Below are positions 15,465 to 29,118 of a stretch of 64,000 nucleotides of DNA, piece after piece (position 1 is the first letter of the stretch; every line of letters begins with the position of its first letter). This stretch comes from Alphaproteobacteria bacterium (GTDB lineage: Bacteria; Pseudomonadota; Alphaproteobacteria; UBA8366). The stretch spans positions 62,001 to 126,000 of the forward strand of contig JANQKC010000026.1 of the NCBI GenBank assembly GCA_028281325.1. Reading direction: 5' to 3'. Under the pieces are notes generated by a model. The model was not told the origin of the DNA. It did not search any database and saw only the letters and a program-made list of their open reading frames with translations. The position numbers and the translations under genes are program-made.

Positions 15465-16064
15465 TTAAGACTTACTGCCGTCGAGGGTGGAGAGCGCTTC
15501 GATCACCGCGTCGGGATCGGGCCGCTGCGTAAAATGCGCTTCCGCATAGACGCCGCGCACGACGCCGGCTGCATCGAGCACGACGATTGTCGGATATGCG
15601 ATGCCGTACCCGAAAGCGCCGGGAGCGTGTTCGTTGTTGAATACGTTGAAGGCCCGGATAGCCTCCGACTTCGGATCGGACAACATCGTGAACCCGATCT
15701 TCCGCCGCTTTGCGAAGCGGTCCAGCGTCTCGACCGGGTCGTAACTGACGGTGGCGACGGTATAGCCGAGGTCGGTGATCTCTTTCAAACGCTTGTTCCA
15801 GGCGACCGCCTGGATCTTGCAGAAGGGTCACCAGTCGAAGGATCGCGTAAACAGGATGATCAGTCCGCGATCACCGGTCAGGTTTTCCCGGCTGCGCGGA
15901 TCGCCGTTTTGATCCTGTACCGTCAATGCATGCGGGCTGGGCGCGCCAACCGCCGGACCACGCTCCGCCGCCGCGGCAGGCAAGGTCAGCCCGATAGCCA
16001 CCAGCAGGGCTGCGAAAGCCGGCGCCATTCCGGCGAATACACTCTTATTCAGCCATGGAATCAC
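15465..16064 (-). CDS. Secreted redoxin (peroxiredoxin/thioredoxin-like) selenoprotein, TGA read as Sec79
   Basis: The frame gives 199 residues if the single in-frame TGA at 15828-15830 is decoded as selenocysteine. It starts at GTG 16064 (GAGG nine bases upstream). It has a signal peptide (hydrophobic core about 13-30, cleavage near AAAA-ERG) and the mature AhpC/TSA-type fold: GAPSPHALTVQDQNG, LIILFTRSFDW, then U79-P-F-C82, and YPTIVVLDAAGVV. The TGA falls exactly at the N-terminal cysteine of the CxxC centre, and both sides of it continue the same family without any frame shift. A SECIS-like hairpin lies just downstream (15797-15814). The alternative is a nonsense mutation of a Cys codon; the hairpin and intact downstream coding argue against it. 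It lies upstream of no gene on its strand and converges on the PyrE-like gene. Confidence 0.85.
15797..15814 (-). promoter_or_regulatory. Predicted bacterial SECIS hairpin
   Basis: In the mRNA sense the 14 bases after UGA are followed by the stem UCCAGGC, loop GGUC and GCCUGGA, seven perfect base pairs closing a tetraloop. The apical loop begins 21 bases after the UGA. In Escherichia coli fdhF the SECIS element also presents a GGUC apical loop, at about 19 bases after UGA, and the loop G and U contact SelB (established knowledge). The stem lies inside codons for IQAVAW, as bacterial SECIS elements do. Confidence 0.75.
15828..15830 (-). other. In-frame UGA selenocysteine codon
   Basis: On the minus strand this TGA separates the codons for FTRSFDW from those for PFCKIQAVAW. 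It stands where homologous redoxins carry the first Cys of WCPxC. No other in-frame stop occurs between GTG 16064 and the final TAG/TAA-class stop at 15465. Confidence 0.8.
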
Positions 16065-16166
16065 GATAGACGTCCTCGATCCGACTCAACCAATCACCGT
16101 CCAATCTATGATCCTTTAGAAATGAATCAATAGGATAATACGACCCGAACACGATCTCGTTACCGT

Positions 16167-28002: not shown

Positions 28003-29118
28003 TCAGGCGACGTTGCGGGTTTCGAGGCGGCTGATCAGTTTGTCCTTCCAGCGGCGCTCGCCGCCCACGGACTGCGCCAGCAACGCGGCGCGGCGGTAAT
28101 AGAGTTGCGCATCCACTTCCCAGGTGTAGCCCATGCCGCCATGGGTCTGGATGTTCTCCTTCGACGCCAGCGCATAGGCCTGGATCGCGGCGACCCGTGC
28201 GGCCGCCGCCGCCGTCGGCAGGTCGGGGGCATCGTTGGCCAGCGCCCACGCGCCATAGAGGGCGTTCGACCGCGCCAGCTCGAGCGCGACATACATGTCC
28301 GCCAGCTTGTGCTTGATCGCCTGGAACGACCCGATCGGCCGGCCGAAGGCATGGCGTGACTTGGCGTACTCGGTCGCCATGTCGAGGCAGGCCTGCGCGC
28401 CGCCGACCTGTTCGAAGGCGAACAGGATCGCGGCCCGGTCGAAGACCCGTTCCATCACGGCCCATCCGTCCCCGGCCACGCCGAGCAACGCGCCCGCCGC
28501 GCCGTCGAACCGGAACCGGGCATGGCTGCGCGACGGGTCGACCGTCTCGACCGGCGTGCGCTCGACACCATCGAGATCGGCCAGAACGAGCGATAGGTCG
28601 CGCGCGCCCTCACCCGTCCGCGCCAGCACGATTGCGAAATCCGCCACGTCGCCATCGGCCACGGGAAGCTTCTCGCCGGTCAGCACGCCGCCCTCGAACC
28701 GAACCTTCACATCCGCAGGGCCAGGCCGCTGCACGCCTTCCGCGACGGCGACGCAGCCGATTGTCTGCCCGCCCGCCAGCAGCGGCAGGTAGCGTTGCTT
28801 CTGCTCCTCCGACCCGGCGAGCAGGATGGCTTCCGCCGCCAGATAGATTGAGGAGCTGAACGGCGTCGGCGCGATCGCGAGGCCCAACTGCTCGGCGATG
28901 ACGCATAACTCCTCGTGACTCAGGCCCGCGCCGCCATAGGCTTCGGGGATGGCGGTCGCCATCCAGCCCAGTTCCGCCATGTCGGCCCACAGGCTCCGGT
29001 CGAAGGGCGCGTCGCCTTCCAGGATAGTGCGCGCCGCATCCACCGAGCCTTTTTCGTCGAGGAAGCGCCGCGCCTGATCCCGCAGCATCCGTTGTTCGTC
29101 GGAAAGATCGAAATTCAT
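28003..29118 (-). CDS. Acyl-CoA dehydrogenase, second of a tandem pair
   Basis: The 371-residue protein starts MNFDLSDEQRMLRDQARRFL, an acyl-CoA dehydrogenase N terminus. It carries the C-terminal helix motifs SRHAFGRPIGSFQAIKHKLAD (about 245-265) and IQTHGGMGYTWEVDAQLYYRR (about 320). It is more divergent than its neighbour in the central barrel. The frame is open further upstream, but that part overlaps the CoA-transferase gene. The ATG at 29118, 4 bases after the CoA-transferase stop, is chosen. Paired FadE subunits form alpha2beta2 enzymes in steroid side-chain degradation; whether these two assemble together is unproven. Confidence 0.88.
   Translation of the reverse strand: MNFDLSDEQRMLRDQARRFLDEKGSVDAARTILEGDAPFDRSLWADMAELGWMATAIPEAYGGAGLSHEELCVIAEQLGLAIAPTPFSSSIYLAAEAILLAGSEEQKQRYLPLLAGGQTIGCVAVAEGVQRPGPADVKVRFEGGVLTGEKLPVADGDVADFAIVLARTGEGARDLSLVLADLDGVERTPVETVDPSRSHARFRFDGAAGALLGVAGDGWAVMERVFDRAAILFAFEQVGGAQACLDMATEYAKSRHAFGRPIGSFQAIKHKLADMYVALELARSNALYGAWALANDAPDLPTAAAAARVAAIQAYALASKENIQTHGGMGYTWEVDAQLYYRRAALLAQSVGGERRWKDKLISRLETRNVA

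Follow-up and report, generated by a model that had tools for sequence, protein, structure and literature searches.

A Prx-like gene with an in-frame UGA

On the minus strand of the 64,000-nucleotide stretch of alphaproteobacterial DNA that we analyzed (the window), a frame runs open from a GTG at 16064 to a stop ending at 15465 and encodes 199 residues if an in-frame UGA is read as selenocysteine (Sec). The product matches the AhpC/TSA domain (Pfam PF00578) with 81.7 bits against a cut-off of 26, and its AlphaFold model, with a mean pLDDT of 90, has a fold matching Bcp/PrxQ and AhpE structures. The active-site motif reads S-F-D-W-U-P-F-C-K, in which U79-P-F-C82 forms a UxxC aligned with the CxxC of Cys homologues. 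In the model the U/C pair opens the first long helix, an arrangement shared with redox enzymes of the thioredoxin fold. The TxxU active site of Sec-containing peroxiredoxins does not occur in the motif, which reads S-F-D-W-U-P-F-C. The product, probably exported, is a redox protein of the Prx/thioredoxin fold whose active site is U-P-F-C; judging by fold and motif, it is likely to act outside the cytoplasm in redox chemistry of thiol-disulfide pairs or peroxides.

Table 1. Features of the selenoprotein gene and its hairpin, in window coordinates.
Feature	Position	Strand	Basis or remark
Prx-like (AhpC/TSA fold) selenoprotein gene, 199 aa with UGA as Sec, GTG start	15465..16064	minus	ORF, Pfam, model, UGA homologues
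Shine-Dalgarno-like GAGGAC	16072..16077	minus	Kept with the GTG start in a sister genome
Probable signal peptide, residues 1-33, hydrophobic stretch ending AAAA	15966..16064	minus	Sequence
In-frame UGA, Sec79, the U of the U-P-F-C motif	15828..15830	minus	Frame and homologue alignment
Cys82 codon, resolving partner in UxxC	15819..15821	minus	Motif, homologue alignment
SECIS hairpin, 7 bp with GGUC loop	15797..15814	minus	Outermost pair 15814-15797 not conserved
5' arm of conserved 6-bp stem, CCAGGC	15808..15813	minus	Homologue pairing, RNAalifold
Apical loop GGUC	15804..15807	minus	Homologue comparison, codon entropy
3' arm of conserved 6-bp stem, GCCUGG	15798..15803	minus	Homologue pairing, RNAalifold

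The same genome carries a tRNA-Sec with a UCA anticodon and adjoining selA and selB genes, recognized by profile matches (TIGR00474, 601 bits; TIGR00475, 452 bits), with the C-terminal winged-helix domains wing_2 and wing_3 present in SelB. Its selD (L080, G000:C17:10982-11911) has an in-frame UGA of its own, in the context GGU-UGA-GGC-UGC, and 17 nt after that UGA comes a hairpin with a GUC loop. There is also a second SelD-like sequence (L081, G000:C33:123515-124432), which lacks an internal stop and lies inside an 819-aa open frame. Between selB and the tRNA-Sec gene, on the same strand and starting right after selB, is a gene of the enolase superfamily (MR_MLE; L009:9714-10811).

A GGUC-capped hairpin downstream of the UGA

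Just downstream of the UGA, the minus strand from 15814 to 15797 reads TCCAGGCGGTCGCCTGGA (RNA: UCCAGGC-GGUC-GCCUGGA). An earlier note on this DNA had described a perfect 7-bp stem with a GGUC apical loop, the stem beginning 14 and the loop 21 bases after the UGA, and both the structure and the positions hold: 13 nt separate the UGA from the stem (+14) and 20 nt separate it from the loop (+21), and RNAfold predicts exactly this hairpin. The predicted minimum free energy (MFE) is -12.8 kcal/mol when just the upstream flank is included and about -15 (to -15.2) kcal/mol with both flanks. The z-score for folding stability, -0.6 to -2.0, is modest, not exceptional and not decisive alone.

How readily such a hairpin arises by chance can be gauged from the window itself, where 56 of 1486 TGA triplets precede a fully paired stem of no fewer than 6 bp whose loop has a G in its first two positions; only two of the 1486 have a GGUC tetraloop on such a stem. 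The other GGUC hairpin, also of 7 bp (loop at 28954, plus strand), lies antisense within an acyl-CoA dehydrogenase-like gene, and we took it to be a chance occurrence. Random codon choice for the peptide QAVAW yields a 6-bp GGUC hairpin about 8% of the time. Given that frequency, the unremarkable z-score and the window counts, the hairpin in a single sequence is only suggestive, and it is the comparative evidence that decides.

A scan against Rfam found no covariance model at its gathering score; the best hit, RAGATH-25 at 16 bits against 49, was taken as chance. When we searched the hairpin's own genome with a covariance model for further SECIS copies, the full score (60 bits) was reached only at the Prx-like gene. 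All other matches stayed below 20 bits, mostly covered no more than the hairpin, and were likewise set aside as chance.

Conservation of the hairpin with the UGA

Homologue searches covered relatives, the order, the class, the phylum and two further groups. They yielded 49 sequences with UGA at the same codon (that of the window included), 17 with Cys and one decayed sequence with UAA. A contig search with Cys-codon patterns returned Cys forms only, because the patterns were built with Cys codons. The UGA forms span several families, with frames open on both sides of the codon. At the same distance from the UGA, the motif CCARGCGGUCGYYUGG is present in 41 of the 49 UGA forms and in none of the 17 Cys forms. 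Four further UGA forms are one base off: L021 and L068 have an outer C->U change, L077 has an inner C->U change, and L079 has the loop GAUC. These four and the 41 make up a core set of 45 sequences, 38 of them distinct.

Across the core set the distance between hairpin and UGA is constant and the loop is GGUC in 44 of 45 cases, the exception being the GAUC of L079 (near base 2037), a natural variant with a Val->Ile change in an otherwise intact gene. All six inner pairs form in 38 of 38 distinct sequences, and RNAalifold finds the same six unprompted. The outermost U-A pair, formed in 13 of 38, is incidental, so that the 7-bp stem of the earlier note is present in the window sequence but only its inner 6 bp are conserved.

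Genomes of family f106 have tandem UGA-containing Prx-like genes, each with its own GGUC hairpin (L041, L031/L043, L032/L042, L054, L056, L064), and elsewhere there are decayed gene copies, interrupted by several stops, whose UGA or hairpin is gone or degraded (L026; L061/L068 around base 901). More distant UGA paralogues have a loop 20-21 nt from the UGA with other loop sequences (CGUGC, CGUGA, GGG), which agrees with the diversity already known among bacterial SECIS elements; in G003 and G031 one such second paralogue with a GGG-loop hairpin occurs alongside the GGUC type in the same genome (L028, L029).

Selection on the RNA

At the fourth stem pair, silent substitutions in the codons at +6 and +9 from the UGA replace G-C by A-U, and the two codons are fully coupled: all 4 sequences with CAA have GCU, and all 41 with CAG have a codon ending in C. 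On the tree the switches fall on four independent branches, all four matched, none mismatched and with no half-way state, a number of pairs too small for formal significance in a sign test. The earlier note had named the lack of covariation in homologues as grounds for rejecting the element; compensatory change is found, with two-sided covariation in only one of six stem pairs; most positions of the stem are held constant by the codons. Among the other inner pairs, those that vary alternate only between C-G and U-G or between G-C and G-U.

Among 47 conserved codons in the 46 UGA genes aligned, synonymous entropy is lowest at the two that form the loop, GCG (44/44) and GTC (44/45). Taken over their whole length, the same genes use GCG for 42% of Ala and GTC for 45% of Val codons. 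Ala and Val residues that are equally conserved use all four codons: for A138, GCC 24, GCG 14, GCA 5 and GCT 2; for V162, GTG 27, GTC 9, GTT 7 and GTA 1. The hairpin is thus selected as RNA, as seen in the fixation of the loop codons, the coupled changes of the fourth pair and the six inner pairs that always form.

Association with SelB

SelB exceeds the cut-off in 19 of 20 tested genomes with the UGA form and in none of 12 with the Cys form only. The one UGA genome in which we found no SelB match, G039, has an assembly that is 88% complete and in 540 contigs. One Cys homologue, L052, falls inside the core clade (support 100/99), its exact place within the clade being unresolved. At the hairpin position L052 reads GGC GAG GCC CTC GAC TGG and has no hairpin, and its genome has no SelB. 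A loss of Sec in the L052 lineage is likely, a course of events that the tree does not prove.

Within the Sec clade, Q-A-V and W are nearly invariant, and a change of Ala to Val at codon +9 is seen where the stem is maintained by G-U pairing. On balance we lean, by a small degree, toward the RNA signal rather than protein function as what fixes the peptide Q-A-V-A/V-W after the active site. Its residues would then follow what the SECIS stem and loop allow, with the hairpin and part of the peptide released where Sec has given way to Cys and SelB is absent, as in L052.

Interpretation

We are almost certain that the hairpin is a true bacterial SECIS element (bSECIS), the kind of RNA signal by which a UGA stop codon comes to be read as Sec, and that it lies within the coding sequence of a Prx-like selenoprotein; it would bind SelB and direct readthrough of the UGA. 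This reading is supported by the hairpin itself, by selection at the RNA level, by the strict link to UGA and SelB and by the genes for tRNA-Sec, SelA, SelB and SelD. The earlier note's proposal that the UGA is recoded gains the same backing, from the compensatory switches, the constancy of the loop codons, the restriction of the hairpin to UGA homologues and the full Sec machinery. In E. coli, hairpin-bound SelB brings Sec-tRNA(Sec) to the ribosome when a UGA enters the A site. By analogy, SelB with Sec-tRNA(Sec) and GTP would bind the GGUC-capped stem through its C-terminal winged-helix domains, contacts that we take from general knowledge. From a position about 20 nt past the UGA, it would deliver selenocysteine, and the UGA would be read as Sec79 instead of as a stop. 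The conserved loop, the stem and the constant spacing fit this E. coli mechanism; SelB binding, readthrough and the efficiency of readthrough are inferred.

Three other explanations were weighed. The UGA could be a true stop or a decayed Cys codon, through pseudogene formation or a sequencing error, and the codons for QAVAW could have produced the hairpin by chance; the 8% chance frequency, the modest folding z-score and the decayed copies in other genomes (L026, L061/L068) speak for this. Against it stand the UGA at the same codon in 49 sequences from several families with frames open on both sides, the synonymous fixation of the loop codons, the matched compensatory changes and the strict association with SelB. 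We regard this explanation as very improbable and already refuted by the conservation found. The conserved nucleotides might instead reflect a protein-level need for QAVAW together with codon bias, with no RNA element at all. The near invariance of Q-A-V and W in the Sec clade would agree with such a need, but Ala and Val residues conserved just as strongly (A138, V162) use all four codons while those of the loop are fixed, the Cys homologues are mostly without QAVAW, and CAG/CAA and GCC/GCT, both silent, always change together, which makes this account extremely improbable.

UGA can also be read by near-cognate tRNAs. The codon might accordingly be decoded as Trp or by such a tRNA, with the hairpin acting as a general readthrough or pausing structure independent of SelB, Sec at residue 79 being predicted from sequence. 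Yet relatives have the redox Cys of CxxC at this position and never Trp, SelB accompanies the UGA form in 19 of 20 genomes and is absent with the Cys form in 12 of 12, and the loop matches the SelB-type GGUC of fdhF; we judge decoding of this kind very unlikely. Reading the codon as Sec restores a gene that standard annotation would end at the UGA, and it leaves the general picture of Sec decoding unchanged.

Comparison with known systems

In the published bSECIS model the loop has 3-9 nt with a G in its first two positions, the upper stem has 4-16 bp, the loop lies 16-37 nt from the UGA and the MFE is at most -7.5 kcal/mol, with no bulged U required (PMC13188914). The hairpin described here agrees with the model on every point and has nothing outside it, with a 4-nt loop that opens with G, then G, a stem of 6-7 bp, a distance of 20 nt and -12.8 to -15.2 kcal/mol; its sequence conservation within the Prx-like Sec clade is unusually strong. 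It lies just downstream of an in-frame UGA within the coding region, its RNA structure is conserved across homologues, and the genome encodes SelB, SelA, tRNA-Sec and SelD.

The likeness to E. coli fdhF drawn in the earlier note is borne out: in both elements a GGUC apical loop sits on a stem shortly after the UGA, 18 nt away in fdhF and 20 nt here. The two differ below the loop, where fdhF has a 3-bp uppermost stem above a bulged U, as the note had said, whereas the stem here runs unbroken for 6-7 bp. The note had called the hairpin a somewhat different variant for want of that bulge. The bulge is indeed absent, but the published model needs none (PMC13188914), which keeps the hairpin inside the known class; its lack of a bulged U is no ground for a new one.

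By its AhpC/TSA domain and motif, the gene fits the published family of Prx-like thiol:disulfide oxidoreductase selenoproteins, which have PF00578 and UxxC (PMC1088965, PMC1794560, PMC13188914, PMC9312934). Like that family, it has UxxC instead of the TxxU of Sec-peroxiredoxins, and its Cys homologues have CxxC; unlike the family as described, it comes from an alphaproteobacterial clade that probably carries a signal peptide. This lineage may have received little description, since for Alphaproteobacteria a survey from 2006 named a single selenoprotein family (PMC1794560). About 45 natural variants of one SECIS, with constant spacing, compensatory changes, one GAUC loop and one Cys relative that lacks both element and SelB, offer useful material for probing the requirements of SelB. 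The element is a new and well-supported case of an already known type of signal, the bSECIS.
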